Source of the DNA: Agapetus fuscipes
Taxonomy: Eukaryota > Arthropoda > Insecta > Trichoptera > Glossosomatidae
Direction: 5' to 3'
Length of the DNA stretch: 64,000 nucleotides
NCBI GenBank assembly: GCA_951799405.1
Contig: OX637353.1
Span: 14,198,001-14,262,000, forward strand
The notes under the pieces: generated by a model
Databases searched by the model: none
The model's input: only the letters and a program-made list of their open reading frames with translations
What the model was told of the DNA's origin: nothing
Shown here: in pieces, positions 33,115-63,725 of the stretch
Layout: the number at the start of each line of letters is the position of its first letter
Position numbering within the stretch: the first letter of the stretch is position 1
Translations under genes and position numbers: made by a program

Positions 33115-34053
33115 TTAATTGGGATATGATACACTGAACAGGTAGGTCTTGAGTTTTTTCCGGAACGTCGACTCTGGGCTTGCGGTTTTGACATCCAGAG
33201 GAAGTCCATTCCACACTGCAGGTGCACCATTGTGGAAGGCTCGGTCGCCGAAGCATGTTCGGTATGGACGATGAGGCTCATTTAGTCTTATCCCTCCTGA
33301 TACAGAGGATCTTAGCACCAGATCACTCCTGTTGGACTGCTGGGATAGCAGTTCAGCCAAGTATGTTGGAGCCTTCCCGTTGAGTGCCTTGTACACAGTG
33401 TAGCATATTTTGTAAGCTACTCTCTCTGGAAACTTCAACCAATGCAGGTTCCTTAGTATTGGCGTGATATGACAGAACTTTCCAGTTCCGAAAATCAGTC
33501 TTGCTGCCGAATTAAGGACCGATTGAAGCCTATTGTTTTGCTTTTTTGTTTGTCCTGCGTAAATTGCACTACAATAGTCTACCCGTGACAGGACAAAGGC
33601 ATTGACCAAGGTTTTTAATGCATCAGGGGGTAGACATCTGCGAATTGCCTTAATTTGGCGCAGTCCAAAGAAAGATGCTGTTAATGTTTTATCCACCTGC
33701 TCACTTAATGTCAGGTCTGTGCCCAATCGTACTCCTAGCAGATCCACAGTTTTTGATGGGTAGATAGAGTCTCCTCCCGATAGTGTCAGCGGTGTGTGCA
33801 AATCTAAGAGATTCTGACGCTTTGATGTGGCAGCCCACAGAATTTCAGTCTTCTGAGGGTTTAGAATCAGCTTGTTTAGAGTCATCCATTCCTGTATCCT
33901 TCCAATGCACGCAGCCATTCGAGATTTCAACCCTTCAGTGTCATTAGGCTTGGAGCTAGCGTATACTTGACAGTCGTCAGCGTATGCATGTATTGATAGC
34001 CCATAGCTGCTCACTATCTTTTCAATATCTTTTGTATATAAGATAAAAAGCAT
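33115..34053 (-). CDS. non-LTR reverse transcriptase, C-terminal 312 residues
   Basis: The ORF opens inside the RT domain. AYADD at residues 23-27 is the catalytic motif C (Y/FADD) of LINE reverse transcriptases. It is followed by LNPQKTEILW (residues 63-72) and by the CR1/Jockey-type C-terminus, with FGDRAFHNGAPAVWN and RKKLKTYLF in the last third. The fingers, palm motifs A and B, and the endonuclease are missing. No stop or frameshift interrupts what is left, which suggests a fairly recent insertion. The first ATG is only where the truncated frame happens to have methionine (after the inversion breakpoint), not a real start. Confidence 0.75.
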   Translation of the reverse strand: MLFILYTKDIEKIVSSYGLSIHAYADDCQVYASSKPNDTEGLKSRMAACIGRIQEWMTLNKLILNPQKTEILWAATSKRQNLLDLHTPLTLSGGDSIYPSKTVDLLGVRLGTDLTLSEQVDKTLTASFFGLRQIKAIRRCLPPDALKTLVNAFVLSRVDYCSAIYAGQTKKQNNRLQSVLNSAARLIFGTGKFCHITPILRNLHWLKFPERVAYKICYTVYKALNGKAPTYLAELLSQQSNRSDLVLRSSVSGGIRLNEPHRPYRTCFGDRAFHNGAPAVWNGLPLDVKTASPESTFRKKLKTYLFSVSYPN

Positions 34054-34135
34054 ACAAAAGATATTGAAAAGATAGTGAGCAGCTATGGGCTATCAATACA
34101 TGCATACGCTGACGACTGTCAAGTATACGCTAGCT
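33954..34135. repeat. 84-bp perfect inverted repeat at LINE-A 5' end
   Basis: Arms 33954-34037 and 34052-34135 with a 14-bp spacer. The right arm duplicates LINE-A coding sequence in reverse. Confidence 0.85.
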
Positions 34136-51118: not shown

Positions 51119-51563
51119 CCCATCTTCTTCTTCTTCTTTTTCAGCCTGTATTGACCGTCCACTCCTGGACGTAGGCCTCCTCTCGCATTTTCCATTCATT
51201 TCTATCCTGAGCGATCCGCATCCAGGCAAGTCCTGCACTTCTCTGAACATCGTCGCGCCAACGCAACTGTGGGCGCCCAACTCCACGCTTTGCCGTCCTT
51301 GGGCACCAGCACAGCAGTCGCTTTGTCCACTTTTCATCTGGATCGCGAGCGACATGTCCCGCCCATCGCCACTTGAGGGTTGCGGCCATCTTGATGACAT
51401 CGGAAACCTTTGTCCTGACTCTTATGTCCTCATTTCTGAGTCTGTCCCGCAAACTGACACCCAACATGGCTCTCTCCATTGTTCTCTGTGTGACTCTTAG
51501 CTTGTGGGCACTTTTTTGTGACATTGTGACTGTCTCAATACCATAAGTGAACACTGGCAGGAC
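51119..51563 (-). mobile_element. LINE-D (RTE type), 5' truncated, 7-bp target duplication
   Basis: Flanked by TTTGATG (51112-51118 and 51564-51570). The 3' end is a (GAA)n tail immediately after the stop codon, the near-absent 3' UTR typical of some RTE-like elements. It is nested inside LINE-C and is therefore younger. Confidence 0.8.
51141..51554 (-). CDS. RTE-type endonuclease/RT polyprotein, C-terminal 137 residues
   Basis: Uninterrupted frame with blocks typical of the RTE C-terminus: YGIETVTM at the start, LRDRLRNEDIRVRT (residues 36-49), KWRWAGHVARD (62-72), GRPQLRWRDDVQRSAG (93-108) and EAYVQEW at the end. This region follows the RT domain; the catalytic parts are absent. The lack of stops suggests a recent copy. 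Confidence 0.7.
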   Translation of the reverse strand: MFTYGIETVTMSQKSAHKLRVTQRTMERAMLGVSLRDRLRNEDIRVRTKVSDVIKMAATLKWRWAGHVARDPDEKWTKRLLCWCPRTAKRGVGRPQLRWRDDVQRSAGLAWMRIAQDRNEWKMREEAYVQEWTVNTG

Positions 51564-51881
51564 TTTGATGTCTATACATATTATTATTTGTTGATTTTAA
51601 AAATGTAATTTGTTGTGTATGTTCCTTGACTTATAGGTTGGTATGCGGCTGACCACCCATGCTGTAGAAAATGGTTCACTTTGCCAATGTCACCCCTGTT
51701 TCAGGGAAGGTCGGCAAGAGCTGCAGGGTCTATGTCCATGTGAGATTCGGGTTTTTATATTGTAGGACTACATGCGGCATGTTTGAGCGCGAACTTGTGC
51801 ATGTCTGTTTGTGAAAGTGCATGTAATGTGAATCTGTAATGTTAGATATATTTCGCAACTTAGATTAGATTAGATTCGTAA

Positions 51882-56448: not shown

Positions 56449-56452
56449 GTAT
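56449..56452. repeat. target-site duplication, left
   Basis: GTAT directly before the left LTR; it matches 63722-63725. Confidence 0.85.
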
Positions 56453-56515
56453 TGTTACGTAATTAGGGTTCAATTGTCTTCAAATTAAAAATACACAGGT
56501 CTTCTTCAATAGTTA

Positions 56516-56521
56516 TTTATT
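56516..56521 (-). terminator. polyadenylation signal AATAAA in the 3' LTR
   Basis: AATAAA on the element strand, about 140 nt past the TATA box position within the LTR. It is the natural candidate for 3' end formation. Confidence 0.5.
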
Positions 56522-56881
56522 TTACACAGTTACAAAATTTATTTTCACACTACTTTCTCGATTATTCCATTGGTTTCGGTTCACTGATCAGATGGCTTCG
56601 ATGTGTTTGTTAGTCGCTATGATACTGGCCCGCTCTGCAGGCCATTCGCACCTTTATACTCTTCAGAGCAGTATGATCCAGAACTAAAGTCGCCAGACGG
56701 TTCCAGAGTAATTATTACTTCTCGACGCTTCACGTACTACCTAGAGATACAACCAAAATCCTACCTACAAATGTAACACAGTATTCCTATAATTATAACA
56801 AATACCTACTTAGCCTAGAGAATTCTACACTTATACATAATTATCGATCTTACCTACCAATACTTTTGAGGATTCTTATAA

Positions 56882-56969
56882 CTATAACTATCCATACTTA
56901 TTTCAATATTTATATTTACATAACACTATAACTACCCATACTTATTTCAATATTTATATTTACATAACA
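56882..56969. repeat. 44-bp tandem duplication at the LTR end
   Basis: Units 56882-56925 and 56926-56969 differ at one position. Each ends in tttacataaca, so the LTR terminus is present twice. The same duplication is in the other LTR (63634-63721). Confidence 0.9.
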
Positions 56970-56982
56970 CTACCCCCCACCT
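56970..56982 (-). other. polypurine tract
   Basis: AGGTGGGGGGTAG on the element strand, touching the 3' LTR. It starts plus-strand DNA synthesis and also encodes the last residues of Pol and its stop. Confidence 0.85.
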
Positions 56983-59900
56983 AGACTGTTTCGTCCCGGA
57001 ACAGTCTTGACTCTGTGTAGGTAGGGGCATGCTGATCCACGTCGACACCCTGTGGTCAGGAAGAAGTGGCAGTCCACGGATTTCTCCCCACTGGCTCTCG
57101 GCTGCGCTTGCTCGCAGCACACCATGACGCTGATGCCGACTCCCGAGAACACTGCTTCAATCATACTCCGGATTATCCGCCAGTCTCGATTAGCGCGGCT
57201 GCCACCCATCTTCGGTATTGCCAGACGCGCCTGCTGATCCTCCAACATGTAGTCACGCAGCTCAACAAGGCCGTCCCACAATGCCTTGTAGTCCTCTTCC
57301 AGGTTGCTGGAATCCGGGACAACCAGGCAGTATGCTTGTTGACGCCCCTTCGGTAGTCTCAGAGCTCTTCCTTGCGGGCTGCTCGAGGGTTGCGGTTCTC
57401 CGAATTTGTATCGGAAGACCCGTGCAATTCCTCTAGACATATCTAGATCTTCCGGTACACTGCATGCCAGTGTGTGGTCCCTAGTGACCTCAAATAAGTC
57501 CTTGTGGACTTCTGTGGTCACTCCATGGCGAAACTTCTGCCCTGCCTTCGCGTTCTCCCAAAACGTCTCAAAGGCTGGTGATCTTTCGGATGCGACGCAC
57601 TTTCGTACTTTTTGGGCTGGTTGGTCATCATTATCGCCTAGGTATGGTGAGAGGCGATTGTAGTGCACGACCCTTGGTTTTCCGTTTGGTCTCTTTTTTA
57701 TGCGGTAGACCACATCGTTGATGCGCTCCAAGATCTCGTACGGCCCGTCCCAGGAACGCTGAAGTTTCGGACAGTATCCTTGGCGCCTCTTGGGGTCAAA
57801 AAGCCACACCCAGTCACCAGCTTTGTACCCCATGCTGTCAGCTCTGGTGTCATAGCGCTCCTTCATTTGATCGCTGGCTTCCCCGATGTTCATGCGGACC
57901 TGATCATGGATGTCATCCAGCCTCCTGCGAAGGTCTGTCACATAGTCTTCTCCGGCTAGGTCTTCACCTGGTTTGCAGCCAAATTTGAGATCACAAGGAA
58001 GTCGCATTTCTCGCCCAAACAGTATGCTGCTGGGAGTCTTCTTCGTCGTTTCCTGAACAGCCGACCGGTAAGCCAATAAGAACAAAGGCAGATGTCGGTC
58101 CCAGTCCCGCTGATGGCTGGACACTACTTTGGCTAAGTACCTCCCCACGGTACGGTTCATCCTTTCCACCATTCCATCAGACTGTGGATGTAGCGCAGTG
58201 GTCCTGGTCTTGTAGATCCCTAGCCGCTCACACATTTGCTGGAAGATAGCAGCTTCAAAGTTCCTTCCCTGATCAGAATGTAATTCCAGGGGTACGCCAA
58301 ACCTGCTGATAAATTCGGTAACTAGAACTTCAGTCACGGTTACGGCCTCTTGGTTAGGGATTGAGTAAGCTTCCACCCACTTGCTGAAGTAATCCATCAC
58401 CACCATGATGTACTTGTTACCCTTCTCAGTTGTAGGAAATGGGCCAGCTATGTCGATGGCAATTCTTTCAAAGGGGCTGCCAACATTGTACTGACGCATT
58501 GGTACTCGCCTTTTCCTTTGCGGTCCATTGGCCGTTGCACAGGTTACACATTTTCGACACCAATCTTTGACGTCTTCGCTGCAGTTGATCCAGTAAAATC
58601 GCTCTTTCACTTTCTCCAGCGTCTTCTTAACGCCTAGATGTCCTCCAGAAGTTCCTCCATGCAGCAGTCCAAGGATTTCCGGTACTCGGCTCCTCGGAAC
58701 GAGGGTTTGCTTTCTTCTAAGTGTGCCGTCTTCCTTCTCGATCTTTCGTTTCAGAAACCCTCCTTCTATCACTATGGATCCCCATTGAGCCCAATAAGCC
58801 TTGACAGTTGGTGATAAGGGGGCGAGTTTTTCCCAGGTTGGCCTTTCTCCTTCTCGCGCCCATTCCATCACATACTTCAAGTCCGGATCATTCAGTTGGT
58901 CTTGCGCCAATTTTTCATCTTGCCAGTCCTCATCTTCGGTGGTCGTCCTTTGGACAATTGCTACCTTGTCCTCCATCTTGCTGCAATGTTTGCAGTCACT
59001 GGCGCATGGTCGTCTGGATAATGCATCCGCATTTCGATGAAGCGTGCCAGGTCTATGTTCGGAGTCATAATCATACTCCTGGAGCCTTTCAATCCATCTA
59101 GCCACTTGCCCTTCTGGGTTTTTGAATTTCAGAAGCCAAACCAGTGCAGCATGATCAGTCCGTAGTGTGAATTTTCTCCCGTACAAGTATTTGCGGAAGT
59201 GTTCCACTGATTTTATCACGGCAAGAAGCTCTCGTCTGGTCACGCAATAATTTCGTTCTGGCTTGGAAAGCACTTTACTGAAGTAACCCAGAACAGTCTC
59301 ATGCCCATCCTGTATTTGGGAAAGGACGCCTCCTATCCCCACATTACTAGCGTCGGTATCCAGGATGAACTTTCCATCTTTTAGTGGGTAGCTCAAGATG
59401 GGGGCACTTGTTAATCTTCCCTTAAGCTCTTCAAATGCTTGTGCGCAGGAATCACTCCAATGGAAGCGAGTGTTTTCTTCCGTAAGCTTGGTGAGCGGTT
59501 TTGCAATGTCCGCAAATCTTGGCACAAACCTCCTGTAATAAGTGCACAGCCCCAGGAAACTCCTAGTTTCATGTTTGTCCTTCAGCACGGGCCAGTCTCT
59601 TACTGCCTTGATTTTGGCAGGGTCAACTTCAACTCCACGTTGAGAAACTATGTGTCCCAGGTAATTTACTTGTTTCTTGAACAGGTTACACTTTTTCGGG
59701 TTGAGCTTCAGTCCAGCGTCTTGTAGTCGCCCGAAAACTTGCTCCAGATTTCTCAACTGATGGTTGAAGTCCTTTCCCAGGATGATTATGTCATCCAAGT
59801 ATACCAGGCAGGTTTCCCATGATAGTCCTCGCAGCACATTCTCCATCAGCCTTTCAAACGTGGCGGGGGCATTGCATAAGCCAAATGGCATCACGGTGAA

Positions 59901-61232
59901 CTGCCAAAGTCCAGATCCAGTCGAGAATGCAGTTTTCTCCTTATCTTTGGCATCCAATTCAACTTGCCAGTAGCCACTTTTCAGGTCCAATGTGGAAAAA
60001 ATGGTGCATCCTGCCAATGTGTCCAAGGTGTCGTCAATCCTTGGCAGAGGGTAACTATCCTTTTTCGTAACATCGTTGAGCAGTCTGTAGTCCACACAAA
60101 ATCTCGTGGTACCATCCTTCTTTTTCACCAGTACCACCGGGGATGTCCAAGGGCTACTTGATGGTTCTATGATGCCATCCTTGCTCATGTCTTTGATGAT
60201 CTTGTCAGCTTCTTCCCGCTTTGCAAAGGGTAGTCTTCTTGGAGCCTGTTTTATTGGTCTCGCTTCTCCGGTGTCTATGCTATGTCGCACTACCTTGGTT
60301 CTTCCCAGACGGCCATTAGAGTCCTCGAAAATGTTCTGGTAGCGGCAGATCAAACTCCTCACTCTCCGTTTGTTTTCCTCGGTTAGACCTTGGGAAGCGT
60401 CGTGGACCAGGGCTTCCAATTGTGTTGACAATTTGTTTCCTTCGCATGACATGTTTGTCATCTGTTGCACAATGGAAGTTATCCTCTCACATCTGCCCAA
60501 AACAAAACCTTCATTCATTTTAACTGGGTAGCTGTTCACATTCATGATCTTGACAGGAATGGTCTCCTTTGCGCGAATCACTGTTCTTGCCACCATGACT
60601 CCTTTGTTAACATTGTCCATGTTCTCCGGTTCTATCATACAGATTTGGTCATTTGTACTACTGGAATCCAGGCGGGCACTCACTATCATCTCGGATCGCC
60701 CCTTCACTTCGGTATTCTTGGCTAGGATAACACGTGCAGCCAGTTCTTTCCGTCTTTGCAGGATGACTTCTTCATTTCCAATTTTAATGGACCCTTTCTT
60801 TAAATTTAAACTGCACCCAAATCTGTCCAGTATGTCCATTCCCAATATAACGTCTTCTTCAATGTTGGCCACCAACGTCCGATGAACAAAAGTGGTGCTG
60901 CCAATTTGGAAGGTGGCAATCGTCTCCCCATACACCTGTGCTGACTCTCCCGTGGCGGTGTGCAGAGACCACTTTGTTGGTGCAATCTGCTTACCTCGTG
61001 CCACTATGTCGCGTCTCAGAATTGTCCTGGTTGCTCCCGTGTCCACCAGTAGTTCACGAGTTACTCCATCTATTATGCCATTGATAAAAATGCTGCTGGC
61101 TTTTCCTCTCACGGTTGCGACAGTAGCAGCAGATTTCAGGGCCTCTCCAGCGTGGGTCAACGGTTGCCCCTTCCCATTAACCCTTTCTAGTTTTCCGCAG
61201 CCTGTTTTCTGGGTTTCTGAGGCTTGGGACAC
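56970..61232 (-). CDS. pol: Gag-Pol frame: Pol polyprotein with C-terminal macrodomain and CCCH zinc finger
   Basis: 1420 residues in the -1 frame relative to gag; a TAA lies directly before the first codon (a GTG), so it is made by frameshifting. Protease: LLVDTGAT, residues 61-68, and ILGMDILDRFG. RT: D416 in STLDLKSGYWQ and YLDD at 478-481. RNase H: D625/D627, E668, D693, D736. Integrase: zinc motif H858, H865, C895, C898; catalytic D927, D987, E1023; GPY motif 1163-1165. Normal Gypsy Pol ends soon after. Here about 210 more residues follow: an OARD1-like macrodomain (about 1241-1373) and a CCCH finger (C1388, C1396, C1402, H1406). The TAG stop is the last triplet before the 3' LTR. No chromodomain was found. 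Confidence 0.95.
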   Translation of the reverse strand: MSQASETQKTGCGKLERVNGKGQPLTHAGEALKSAATVATVRGKASSIFINGIIDGVTRELLVDTGATRTILRRDIVARGKQIAPTKWSLHTATGESAQVYGETIATFQIGSTTFVHRTLVANIEEDVILGMDILDRFGCSLNLKKGSIKIGNEEVILQRRKELAARVILAKNTEVKGRSEMIVSARLDSSSTNDQICMIEPENMDNVNKGVMVARTVIRAKETIPVKIMNVNSYPVKMNEGFVLGRCERITSIVQQMTNMSCEGNKLSTQLEALVHDASQGLTEENKRRVRSLICRYQNIFEDSNGRLGRTKVVRHSIDTGEARPIKQAPRRLPFAKREEADKIIKDMSKDGIIEPSSSPWTSPVVLVKKKDGTTRFCVDYRLLNDVTKKDSYPLPRIDDTLDTLAGCTIFSTLDLKSGYWQVELDAKDKEKTAFSTGSGLWQFTVMPFGLCNAPATFERLMENVLRGLSWETCLVYLDDIIILGKDFNHQLRNLEQVFGRLQDAGLKLNPKKCNLFKKQVNYLGHIVSQRGVEVDPAKIKAVRDWPVLKDKHETRSFLGLCTYYRRFVPRFADIAKPLTKLTEENTRFHWSDSCAQAFEELKGRLTSAPILSYPLKDGKFILDTDASNVGIGGVLSQIQDGHETVLGYFSKVLSKPERNYCVTRRELLAVIKSVEHFRKYLYGRKFTLRTDHAALVWLLKFKNPEGQVARWIERLQEYDYDSEHRPGTLHRNADALSRRPCASDCKHCSKMEDKVAIVQRTTTEDEDWQDEKLAQDQLNDPDLKYVMEWAREGERPTWEKLAPLSPTVKAYWAQWGSIVIEGGFLKRKIEKEDGTLRRKQTLVPRSRVPEILGLLHGGTSGGHLGVKKTLEKVKERFYWINCSEDVKDWCRKCVTCATANGPQRKRRVPMRQYNVGSPFERIAIDIAGPFPTTEKGNKYIMVVMDYFSKWVEAYSIPNQEAVTVTEVLVTEFISRFGVPLELHSDQGRNFEAAIFQQMCERLGIYKTRTTALHPQSDGMVERMNRTVGRYLAKVVSSHQRDWDRHLPLFLLAYRSAVQETTKKTPSSILFGREMRLPCDLKFGCKPGEDLAGEDYVTDLRRRLDDIHDQVRMNIGEASDQMKERYDTRADSMGYKAGDWVWLFDPKRRQGYCPKLQRSWDGPYEILERINDVVYRIKKRPNGKPRVVHYNRLSPYLGDNDDQPAQKVRKCVASERSPAFETFWENAKAGQKFRHGVTTEVHKDLFEVTRDHTLACSVPEDLDMSRGIARVFRYKFGEPQPSSSPQGRALRLPKGRQQAYCLVVPDSSNLEEDYKALWDGLVELRDYMLEDQQARLAIPKMGGSRANRDWRIIRSMIEAVFSGVGISVMVCCEQAQPRASGEKSVDCHFFLTTGCRRGSACPYLHRVKTVPGRNSLGGG
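57015..57071 (-). other. CCCH zinc finger of Pol (residues 1388-1406)
   Basis: C-x7-C-x5-C-x3-H, close to the C-x7/8-C-x5-C-x3-H form of RNA-binding CCCH fingers (TIS11/Unkempt/ZAP-like). Aromatic residues F1390-F1391 and Y1404 sit where such fingers carry RNA-stacking residues. Spacing fits the family; RNA binding is inferred. Confidence 0.7.
57114..57512 (-). other. OARD1-like macrodomain of Pol (about residues 1241-1373)
   Basis: Segments follow the order of the OARD1/TARG1-type macro fold: KDLFEVTRDHTLACSV (strand and ADP-ribose contact loop), DLDMSRGIARVFRYKFG (family form MGxGIAxxFxxxFG), QQAYCLVV, DYKALWDGLVELR (helix), LAIPKMGG (family form MPxIGxG), a conserved W1351, then IIRSMIEAVFSGVGISVMV. 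By ungapped alignment the lysine and aspartate used for catalysis in human OARD1 fall on P1306 and A1347, so binding without hydrolysis is possible. The assignment is from motif order by eye. Confidence 0.75.
57633..58670 (-). other. integrase region of Pol (residues 855-1200)
   Basis: HHCC zinc-binding N-terminus, D-x59-D-x35-E catalytic core (LHSDQGRNFE, HPQSDGMVER) and GPY-type C-terminal module, all intact. Confidence 0.9.
58998..60170 (-). other. reverse transcriptase and RNase H region of Pol (residues 355-745)
   Basis: RT residues 355-530 with intact catalytic aspartates; RNase H residues 615-745 with DTDASNVGIGG, RRELLAV, RTDHAAL and NADALSR blocks. Confidence 0.9.
60813..61115 (-). 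other. aspartic protease region of Pol (residues 40-140)
   Basis: Single-subunit retropepsin: VDTGAT active site (D64) and the downstream ILGMDIL strand. Expected to act as a dimer. Confidence 0.85.
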
Positions 61233-62536
61233 TTAGTGCTAAGGTGGCCCAGCTGTCCGCAGTTCCAGCAGCGTGGGTCTCGTCTTCGAGGTCTCAGACG
61301 TTCCAGCACTTTTTCAATTAGCTCCTCGGTTGTAGGTAGCTTGACCTCCTCTGCCTCGACTGCACGAACCCTGGCGTGGCCCCTGATGGACTGTTTGACA
61401 GCCTCAAACTCGAGAGCTTGGCTGAGCGCCTCGTTCAAAGCCTTGGGATGGGCCAGTTTTACGGCTTGTTGCGTCTCCCATTCCCGCAATCCATTTAGGA
61501 ACTTGTCCACTGCCAAGCTCTCACAGATGTCGTCGGAGGCTGTCGGGTAAGCGTCTCGTACCAGGCGGGCGATGTCCATTTCAAACTCCTGGAGGCTCTC
61601 GTTGGGCTTCTGCACCCTTGTGTTCAGCTGCGACTTGTACAGCTGCTCCAGGCACTTGTGGCCATAGCGCATATCCAAGCGCTGCTTCAGCTGCCCAAAG
61701 TCACCACGGTTGTCCAGGGGTATGGCCTGCAGAACCCTGAGAGCGTCTCCTCGGAGCGACAGGCTGAGAACCGAAGCCTTCTTCTGCTGGCTCCAGGCTC
61801 CCATCATGGCAGCCGTCTCAAAGAGGGTCAAGTATTCCTCCCACGACGTCTTCCCGTCGAAGGTTGGGAGGTTGTGCTTGGCTAGGGAAGGGTCATCATC
61901 CCCTCTTGTGATCCTGGTTGGAGTTGAGCATCCCTGGTCGGTCTCGTCGTGAAGGCCGCCTTTGGGGGAGATTCTGGTGGACTCCATCTGGCACTTGTCA
62001 GCCAGCTCGGCACGCAGACGGTCTTCCAGGTTTGACATCCGAGTCTCCATTTCCCCCTTCAGGGCCGAGAGGTTGGTTGTCATCTTCTCCTCTATTTCTC
62101 CTTTCAGGGTTGTGAGACTATCCGCTATCTCCGCCTTCAGGTCGGTCACCACTTCCTTCAGGTTGGTGGTCATCTTCTCCTCCAGCCCGGTCAGGTCCTC
62201 CTTCAGGGTCTTGGCGTTGTCAGCCATCTTCTCCTCCAGGGTCTTGGCGTTGTCAGCCATCTCCACTTTCAGTCCTGTCAGGTTACTGGTCATCTTCTCC
62301 TCCATGGTAGTGAGGCCTTCCTTCAAGTTTCCATTGATGCTGAGGTTCAGCTCCTCAAGGGCGCGGTCTCCCCCAGATGCCATGACAAAGTATGCCGCGT
62401 CTTCGCCTGACTGTTCTAGAGCTTTCATGAGGCGTGCTTGTAAGGCCGCCTTCCCTCCTGAGGTCTCCAGGTCCCTCTCCAGAAGCTCATTCTTAAGCTC
62501 AGTGACTTTGAGGTCCTTGATGTTCACCTTAGCCAT
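61187..62536 (-). CDS. gag: Gag polyprotein with SAP-like N-terminus
   Basis: 449 residues from ATG 62536, which follows a 12-nt A run. Residues 8-42 (LKVTELKNELLERD ... GGKAALQARLMKAL) match the helix-extended-helix SAP motif, a DNA/chromatin-binding module. Residues 68-182 are a repetitive predicted coiled coil built on EEKMTxNLxxLKxE-like units (EEKM occurs several times). Residues 222-385 resemble Ty3/Gypsy capsid (LPTFDGKTSWEEYLTLFE; YGHKCLEQLYKSQL). A zinc knuckle, C423-x2-C426-x4-H431-x4-C436, lies near the end and would bind genomic RNA. It overlaps pol by 46 nt. Function: particle assembly and RNA packaging; the SAP motif may help with chromatin access. Confidence 0.9.
   Translation of the reverse strand: MAKVNIKDLKVTELKNELLERDLETSGGKAALQARLMKALEQSGEDAAYFVMASGGDRALEELNLSINGNLKEGLTTMEEKMTSNLTGLKVEMADNAKTLEEKMADNAKTLKEDLTGLEEKMTTNLKEVVTDLKAEIADSLTTLKGEIEEKMTTNLSALKGEMETRMSNLEDRLRAELADKCQMESTRISPKGGLHDETDQGCSTPTRITRGDDDPSLAKHNLPTFDGKTSWEEYLTLFETAAMMGAWSQQKKASVLSLSLRGDALRVLQAIPLDNRGDFGQLKQRLDMRYGHKCLEQLYKSQLNTRVQKPNESLQEFEMDIARLVRDAYPTASDDICESLAVDKFLNGLREWETQQAVKLAHPKALNEALSQALEFEAVKQSIRGHARVRAVEAEEVKLPTTEELIEKVLERLRPRRRDPRCWNCGQLGHLSTKCPKPQKPRKQAAEN
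61190..61196 (-). promoter_or_regulatory. candidate -1 frameshift site GGAAAAC
   Basis: The heptamer ends at the base before the gag TAG, read as G GAA AAC in the gag frame. It lies inside the only gag/pol overlap (61187-61232). The A-site slip AAC to AAA is standard. The P-site is non-canonical but has a G-GA precedent in known retroviral sites. The exact site is inferred. Confidence 0.45.
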
Positions 62537-63204
62537 TTTTTTTTTTTAACAAACTTCAAAACAAAAATATTTGCAAATTTATTTAATACGGGTTATGAGT
62601 TTTATATATAAAGTTATTTTGAATACGTACTTTAGCAAAAATAATAATTTGTCTGATTACACTGATTGGTAGGTAGGTACTGTCTTTTAATATTTATTTT
62701 TAATTCACCAATATTTTTAACATAATAATGTCTGATAGTACATAATTATTTATTTCGTCTCAAGTCTTTCAAACACACAGGTAGGTACTTATTGTACATT
62801 CACACACTTGTAAACAAAGGATAGTTATTCAAAAACTTTTTCTCGATGAATCTGGAACGTTCTTTTGTAATATTTTTCAAGATTTTTATTTATTTATTTT
62901 ATTTTTTTAATCACACACAATAATAAAAAAACTATGGTCCAATTTGATGACTTTCTCAATGCGGTAAAATAGTCATTATGTTATGTCCAGAATTATGTTC
63001 CATATGATGTTCCAGAATTTATAAGCAACTTGCTTTTGCGTCTTTTCTTTTAACAAAAATTTATTTAAACACTTGTTTTCACAAAAGTCAGTTCACACAA
63101 AGTTCAATTTGAATAAAGTTCATTTTAACACTATTTAATTTATTTTATTTATTTTTAGACAGAAGATCTTAATTTTTCTTGACAATTCCGCACCTGACGC
63201 CAAT
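62537..63204 (-). other. leader between PBS and gag
   Basis: 668 nt, AT-rich, no long ORF. Expected to hold packaging signals, none of which can be read from sequence alone. Confidence 0.6.
63185..63202 (-). other. primer-binding site
   Basis: On the element strand it begins TGGCGTCAGGTGCGGAA, two bases after the 5' LTR. The leading TGG pairs with the CCA end of a tRNA; which tRNA was not determined. Confidence 0.75.
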
Positions 63205-63721
63205 TGTTACGTAATTAGGGTTCAATTGTCTTCAAATTAAAAATACACAGGTCTTCTTCAATAGTTATTTATTTTACACAGTTACAAAATTTATTTTCAC
63301 ACTACTTTCTCGATTATTCCATTGGTTTCGGTTCACTGATCAGATGGCTTCGATGTGTTTGTTAGTCGCTATGATACTGGCCCGCTCTGCAGGCCATTCG
63401 CACCTTTATACTCTTCAGAGCAGTATGATCCAGAACTAAAGTCGCCAGACGGTTCCAGAGTAATTATTACTTCTCGACGCTTCACGTACTACCTAGAGAT
63501 ACAACCAAAATCCTACCTACAAATGTAATACAGTATTCCTATAATTATAACAAATACCTACTTAGCCTAGAGAATTCTACACTTATACATAATTATCGAT
63601 CTTACCTACCAATACTTTTGAGGATTCTTATAACTATAACTATCCATACTTATTTCAATATTTATATTTACATAACACTATAACTACCCATACTTATTTC
63701 AATATTTATATTTACATAACA
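63205..63721 (-). repeat. 5' LTR of the Gypsy element, 517 bp
   Basis: Carries the promoter that drives the element; identical to the 3' LTR except at 63529. Confidence 0.95.
63404..63410 (-). promoter_or_regulatory. TATA box of the 5' LTR
   Basis: TATAAAG on the element strand. A CCAGTAT that could act as initiator lies 25-30 nt downstream (about 63374-63380). Confidence 0.5.
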
Positions 63722-63725
63722 GTAT
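63722..63725. repeat. target-site duplication, right
   Basis: GTAT, matching 56449-56452. Confidence 0.85.

Follow-up and report, generated by a model that had tools for sequence, protein, structure and literature searches.

The macrodomain hydrolase TARG1 (also OARD1 or C6orf130, an ALC1-like protein) takes ADP-ribose off aspartate and glutamate residues and off phosphorylated RNA and DNA ends (PMC7050489). Hydrolysis depends on two of its residues, Lys84 and Asp125 (PMC9411070; the review PMC7050489 gives Glu125 for the second). Host-type binding modules are found at the C-terminus of the integrase in chromoviruses and in other Gypsy retrotransposons with a chromodomain or a Tudor domain (PMC12477816, PMC3605345). 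A NADAR domain, which is ADP-ribose-related, occurs in the Pol of a Gypsy lineage of Ectocarpus and also in Tx1 long interspersed nuclear elements (LINEs) of oyster (PMC12477816), and a macro domain has been described in Epsilon-like endogenous retroviruses (ERVs) of fish (Basta et al. 2009, via PMC4977317). (PMC3605345, PMC4695847, PMC4977317, PMC5087735, PMC7712786, PMC9411070 and PMC12477816 are cited throughout from excerpts of their text.) Here we describe a Gypsy long terminal repeat (LTR) retrotransposon of the trichopteran Agapetus fuscipes, the Pol of which ends with a macrodomain of the TARG1 class. It lies in a stretch of 64,000 nucleotides (contig OX637353.1, positions 14,198,001 to 14,262,000), the whole of which is called the window below; all coordinates refer to the window and, for every feature given, to the minus strand.

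Results

A TARG1-type macrodomain in the frame of a Gypsy Pol

It is confirmed that this Gypsy Pol continues, past its integrase and without a break in the frame, into a macrodomain of the TARG1/OARD1 class. The domain is found at 57111..57572, that is at residues 57-210 of P0001, the Pol tail of the window copy, from which the residues of the macrodomain and of the zinc finger are numbered; the OARD1 sequence match itself covers 57120-57515. The DLF, GIA and late W motifs of TARG1 are kept. A preliminary description of the window, made from its letters only, had placed a macrodomain of this class in the same open frame after the integrase, and the frame read in the raw DNA, the fold and the matches in the PDB all bear this out: the fold comparison which it had proposed gave a macro fold with TARG1 as the nearest, and TARG1/OARD1 is the best PDB match by sequence as well as by structure. 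A chance match was rejected, the macrodomain scoring 77.1 bits against at most 2.4 bits for shuffled sequences.

A CCCH zinc finger follows at 57015..57083 (P0001 residues 220-242; PF00642, E 2.7e-4). It passes the Pfam cut-off (21.2 bits against 20.5), and its nearest fingers in the PDB are those of CPSF 30 kDa/CPSF4 (E 0.0053 for CPSF 30 kDa). The Pfam matches of P0001 with E up to 1 include no chromodomain, and a chromodomain tail was rejected on this ground.

Among viral structures, VP8 of Kadipiro virus (A0A8E0KJF2; E 4.9e-11, 26% identity) comes closest to the window model, which suggests that an OARD1-like macrodomain may exist in this virus too.

The fusion looks like a single old capture

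A search with the core of Pol from reverse transcriptase to integrase (the RT-IN core) gave 3586 relatives among 7979 scored, of which 120 are listed; the counts of core relatives given below concern these listed matches. The macrodomain is present in 22 of the 25 relatives with a core identity of at least 64%, and the cores of those keeping it are about 71% identical on average. The macrodomain profile matches none of the 95 relatives with a core identity of at most 60.3%. Hence we rejected an ordinary Gypsy C-terminal tail, the alternative which the preliminary description had named against itself.

We computed a careful tree of 45 cores, namely the members of a 64-row quick tree with an identity of at least 58.2%, plus three others. 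The 25 close relatives form one clade in this tree (support 100/99), and its sister, P0264, is without the domain. Three rows of the clade, P0242, P0253 and P0261, are without it too. A clade of the 22 fusion cores excluding these three was rejected on the 64-row quick tree (approximately unbiased test, p 5.6e-5); one gain followed by up to three losses is therefore the simplest reading. To judge from their sequences, the three look like secondary losses, or like products of recombination with short-tailed elements: P0253 has an end resembling that of the family (FRDE...RRGQC) with no macrodomain match, and P0242 terminates in RDEQN, as some sister elements do. Among 98 Pols that do not have the domain, 38 show RDE or DEQ within the last 22 residues; the end FRDE...RRGQC occurs in several fusion members. 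These shared ends suggest that the macrodomain was inserted just ahead of the final Pol residues.

The tree of the macrodomains themselves has 102 rows (80% clustering, with the window copy and P0128 both retained). Its 20 element rows form one clade, with a support of 99, against 82 standalone rows; they consist of 19 rows labelled as element and of P0127, which was missed by the motif test because one cysteine of its CCCH finger is a serine. Thus the fusion appears to go back to a single old capture event and to have been retained in many relatives, in agreement with the earlier idea that a retrotransposon had captured the module.

Of the two parts of the tail, the finger is the less regular. 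The CCCH motif is found in 120 of the 131 element members with enough tail, a set that includes many near copies from a single beetle. It is present in 13 of the 22 fusion rows and absent from seven (P0243, P0246, P0248, P0254, P0257, P0258 and P0260); the other two (P0244, P0328) are cut short. All of the seven except P0254 make up a nested subclade which has lost the finger and kept the macrodomain with its catalytic pair. The macrodomain is thus kept more constantly than the finger.

The catalytic pair

Alignments, with the residue checked, put a proline codon (57315..57317, P0001 residue 142) at the place of the catalytic Lys84 of TARG1 and an alanine codon (57192..57194, residue 183) at the place of Asp125. 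The equivalents of D20, F22, D37, M40, G43, I44 and A45, in what we take to be the TARG1 numbering, are retained. P0128, which lies on a contig of 996 bases, differs from the window tail at four of 231 residues and likewise has Pro/Ala; the change is thus a trait of a subfamily and not an accident of one copy.

We took the census of the pair on the 153 element macrodomains covering nearly the whole profile, reduced to 34 representatives at 80% identity. Both Lys and Asp are present in 29 of these 34. The five exceptions are the window copy (Pro/Ala), P0131 (Lys/gap), P0249 (Lys/Asn), P0252 (Arg/Asn) and P0255 (Arg/Asp). The unclustered counts (Lys in 133 of 136, Asp in 133 of 136) predate the addition of the rows of the RT-IN core search and consist for the most part of near copies from a single beetle. 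In P0249, P0252 and P0255, Lys or Asp is replaced, yet the family profile matches each of them along the full length of the domain.

Hydrolase activity has likely been lost in the window copy, as far as its residues tell. Its inactivity does not follow from the loss of the pair, since SCO6735 is an active hydrolase although its residues at the two places are Gln and Ala (PMC9411070, PMC5087735). The pair being lost and much of the remaining pocket being kept, we read the window copy as a probable binder of ADP-ribose, or as a domain with another chemistry; for its subfamily, a reader and a remnant eraser appear about equally likely from the sequences.

Hosts and records of the lineage

The tail search was made with a piece of 944 amino acids (region 688-943) and matched 144 proteins, 120 of them listed. 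With BLAST (E up to 1), the macrodomain and the integrase end are matched by all 120 listed and the CCCH part by 118. Among the listed matches, the hosts are mostly Aromia moschata and Molorchus minor, with one Callosobruchus maculatus and one Erysiphe pulchra. The macrodomain profile search (253 matches, 120 listed) added proteins of Gonioctena, Leptinotarsa, Brassicogethes, Pyrocoelia and Acanthoscelides; its listed matches also hold standalone OARD1s, from flies and vertebrates among others. Where a host of the fusion is named among the matches listed, it is a beetle or the powdery mildew Erysiphe pulchra. The two mildew records, P0103 and P0260, are on short contigs (5.4 and 6.5 kb), and we suspect an arthropod contamination; P0103 matches the macrodomain and has Gag-like sequence at its end.

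The Leptinotarsa proteins P0134 and P0131, one of which is annotated as OARD1-like, are listed with a Gypsy integrase C-terminal domain, and for this reason look like fragments of the element, not like a host OARD1. Gonioctena P0193 falls among the standalone OARD1s in the macrodomain tree and may be a genuine host gene. Two Gypsy Pols have record names unfit for a plain retrotransposon: P0265 is entered as "Ips erranti-like virus 3 replicase", and P0288 as a protein of a Rickettsia endosymbiont. A scan of viral contigs found no relative. The search of the Agapetus genome with Pfam Macro gave three matches, none inside the window, and tblastn of five standalone OARD1s, of P0001 and of P0124 on these three loci gave no match.

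The element

The element is intact and complete, with near-identical LTRs, a target-site duplication and open Gag and Pol frames. Its 5' LTR (63205..63721) and its 3' LTR (56453..56969) are direct repeats of 517 bp, TG...CA in the sense of the element, with one mismatch between them (56777 against 63529); this single difference suggests a recent insertion. The same four bases, ATAC, flank the element as target-site duplication (63722..63725 on the 5' side, 56449..56452 on the 3' side). A putative primer binding site, TGGCGTCAGGTGCGG, is found 2 nt past the 5' LTR (63188..63202), and the polypurine tract, AGGTGGGGGG (56973..56982), encodes the final residues of Pol, whose stop codon TAG (56970-56972) abuts the 3' LTR.

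Gag (61187..62536) has an N-terminal SAP domain (PF02037, E 6.9e-8), then a coiled coil built of repeated units, then Retrotrans_gag (PF03732, E 3.8e-5) and one CCHC knuckle (PF00098, E 1.6e-5). SAP PF02037 is also annotated in many Aromia gene models of the same lineage. The open Pol frame (56970..61232) has 1420 uninterrupted codons and overlaps the end of Gag in the -1 frame. Pfam was run on this frame cut into four pieces, and gave in order the aspartyl protease (60822..61085; PF13975, E 1.4e-10), the reverse transcriptase (59646..60128; PF00078 on two adjoining pieces, E 7.4e-21 and 3.2e-9), RNase H (59073..59459; PF17919, E 1.1e-34, and PF17917, E 5.4e-34) and the integrase (57645..58700), the latter with its H2C2 zinc-binding domain, its catalytic core and its p58/GPY-type C-terminal domain (PF17921, E 9.1e-19; PF00665, E 5.8e-16; PF22938, E 7e-11). 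Paired TG...CA LTRs, a short duplication, a putative primer site, a polypurine tract, a Gag with capsid and CCHC, and a Pol in the order protease, reverse transcriptase, RNase H, integrase are the features of a Gypsy/Ty3 element. The interval from the integrase to the LTR is fully taken up by the tail of macrodomain and finger, which leaves no room for env.

Elsewhere in the window, the open fragment 33115-34089 resembles the reverse transcriptase of what we take to be a CR1/L2-type LINE, and the open fragment 51141-51596 the 3' end of a LINE presumably of RTE type.

Discussion

From the sequence comparisons, we give an even chance to the following reading: a Gypsy lineage has captured a TARG1/OARD1 tail which acts as an eraser against host ADP-ribosylation, and this tail has become reader-like in the subfamily of the window. 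The macrodomain would have been captured between the end of the integrase and the last residues of Pol, and kept, mostly together with the CCCH finger. In most members the tail would act as an ADP-ribose eraser, and its fusion to the integrase would keep it in the particle or in the pre-integration complex; the finger would hold the RNA or the cDNA of the element. The eraser would strip ADP-ribose placed by PARPs or sirtuins of the host on Gag, on the integrase, on chromatin proteins which silence the element, or on phosphorylated ends of RNA or cDNA. In the subfamily of the window, the domain would bind ADP-ribose, as a reader or as a decoy, or would have another chemistry. It is known that SIRT6 mono-ADP-ribosylates KAP1, which silences L1 (PMC4695847). 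In Drosophila without PARP-1, eight mobile elements are significantly changed, five upwards and three downwards, and nine of the ten risers of a weaker list belong to the gypsy superfamily (PMC7712786). Joined to the integrase, a TARG1 domain would be well placed to undo marks of this kind on capsid, integrase, chromatin or cDNA ends.

Several observations weigh against this reading. The window copy lacks both Lys84 and Asp125; it has in addition a serine instead of the loop glycine two places before Asp125, and a cysteine in place of the histidine of the AHC motif. Its macrodomain has changed faster than its Pol would predict: when only pairs with an RT-IN core identity of 66-72% are compared, its mean identity is 37.4% (18 pairs), against 46.5 (standard deviation 5.7) for the 148 other pairs. 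With a row mean of 37.5 it ranks last among 22 rows, and just above it come P0252 (39.3), P0255 (41.3) and P0249 (42.4), which are all partly without the pair. The three clade rows without the macrodomain show that the domain is dispensable. The authors of the Drosophila study note that the effect of PARP-1 on the elements may be indirect (PMC7712786). The proposal of the preliminary description, that the domain perhaps counters PARP signalling, would, if hydrolysis is meant, suit the relatives, 29 of 34 with the pair, better than the window copy with its Pro/Ala. Its interpretation as a whole is supported in part; it had overlooked the CCCH finger, the SAP domain of Gag, the intact LTRs with their duplication, and the NADAR and ERV precedents.

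Other explanations have to be weighed on the same evidence. The macrodomain could be a reader which targets integration in the manner of a chromodomain, so that insertions would be directed to ADP-ribosylated chromatin, for example at breaks or at PARP-activated loci. We consider this unlikely: by analogy, the position in Pol is indeed that of the chromodomain or Tudor domain in other Gypsy integrases, the window tail retains its fold without the pair, and P0249, P0252 and P0255 have remained whole domains, but a mere reader has no need of the hydrolytic pair which most representatives keep. It is more doubtful still that nucleic acid is the main business of the tail, with both the finger and the macro fold binding the RNA or cDNA of the element for packaging or reverse transcription and with ADP-ribose being incidental. 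CCCH fingers mostly bind RNA; the CPSF fingers nearest to that of the window and the frequency of the motif among the members with enough tail (with its many near copies) would suit such a role, against which stands the nested subclade that dropped the finger and kept the macrodomain with its pair.

That the macrodomain is neutral cargo, hitch-hiking on successful elements, seems very improbable to us. The three short-tailed relatives nested within the clade and the fast-diverged, pairless window copy would be expected of cargo; the retention of the domain in most close relatives, at the core identities given above, and of the active pair in most representatives would not, since a neutral sequence should have decayed. 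A chance resemblance, or a fusion created by assembly or gene models, is practically negligible, the frame being read in the raw DNA of an element with near-identical LTRs and the fusion records coming from several species and samples. We come back to the eraser tail in a narrower form, which we put forward tentatively and below even chances: a beetle-centred Gypsy lineage would carry on its integrase a TARG1-type hydrolase, serving as counter-defence where the host ADP-ribosylates element proteins and RNA or cDNA ends, and some sublineages, that of the window included, would have turned it into a reader.

The fusion suggests that ADP-ribose tags are of importance where hosts and jumping elements are in conflict. 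If the counter-defence were real, then, together with NADAR and the macro reading frames of fish ERVs, ADP-ribosylation would be a recurrent battleground of hosts and retroelements. An eraser standing at the place of a chromatin reader, captured about once and with its active residues mostly kept, makes the action of host ADP-ribosylation on retrotransposons, and a possible response of the elements, testable; in addition, intact and altered forms of a single enzyme exist side by side in one element lineage as a natural series. For annotation, the element accounts for some of the proteins entered for beetles as "OARD1-like", "C3H1-type" or "Macro domain-containing" (the "OARD1-like" model of Leptinotarsa for instance).

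Comparison with known systems

Among the papers listed by searches of the accessible literature on macrodomains or OARD1 in Gypsy, LTR or other retroelements, we found no description of this fusion lineage, and none is given in the excerpts of PMC4977317, PMC4695847, PMC12477816 and PMC2774666; the preliminary description, which knew of no Gypsy lineage with such a layout, is so far upheld. ADP-ribose-related domains in retroelements have precedents of other kinds (PMC12477816, PMC4977317). The Ectocarpus lineage shares with ours a Gypsy Pol joined to an ADP-ribose-related domain. The likeness to the fish ERVs, known by description only, is that of a retroelement with a macro domain, which is carried there by additional retroviral reading frames (PMC4977317). 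Compared with chromoviruses, the module at the end of the integrase is an ADP-ribose domain with a catalytic pair in most members, and the window tail has no chromodomain match. The sisters of the lineage are arthropod Gypsy Pols with names in K02A2.6 or 412: their RT-IN cores are at most 60.3% identical and their tail is short, and among the matches listed none of the 95 rows below 64% identity has a macrodomain match. Finally, TARG1/OARD1 shares with the domain of the element its fold and its sequence class, and most relatives keep Lys84/Asp125. It differs in that the domain of the element is fused to a Gypsy integrase, that the window copy has the Pro/Ala pair and the cysteine for the AHC histidine, and that the element lineage mostly has MSRGIA where most standalone OARD1-type rows have MGxGIA.
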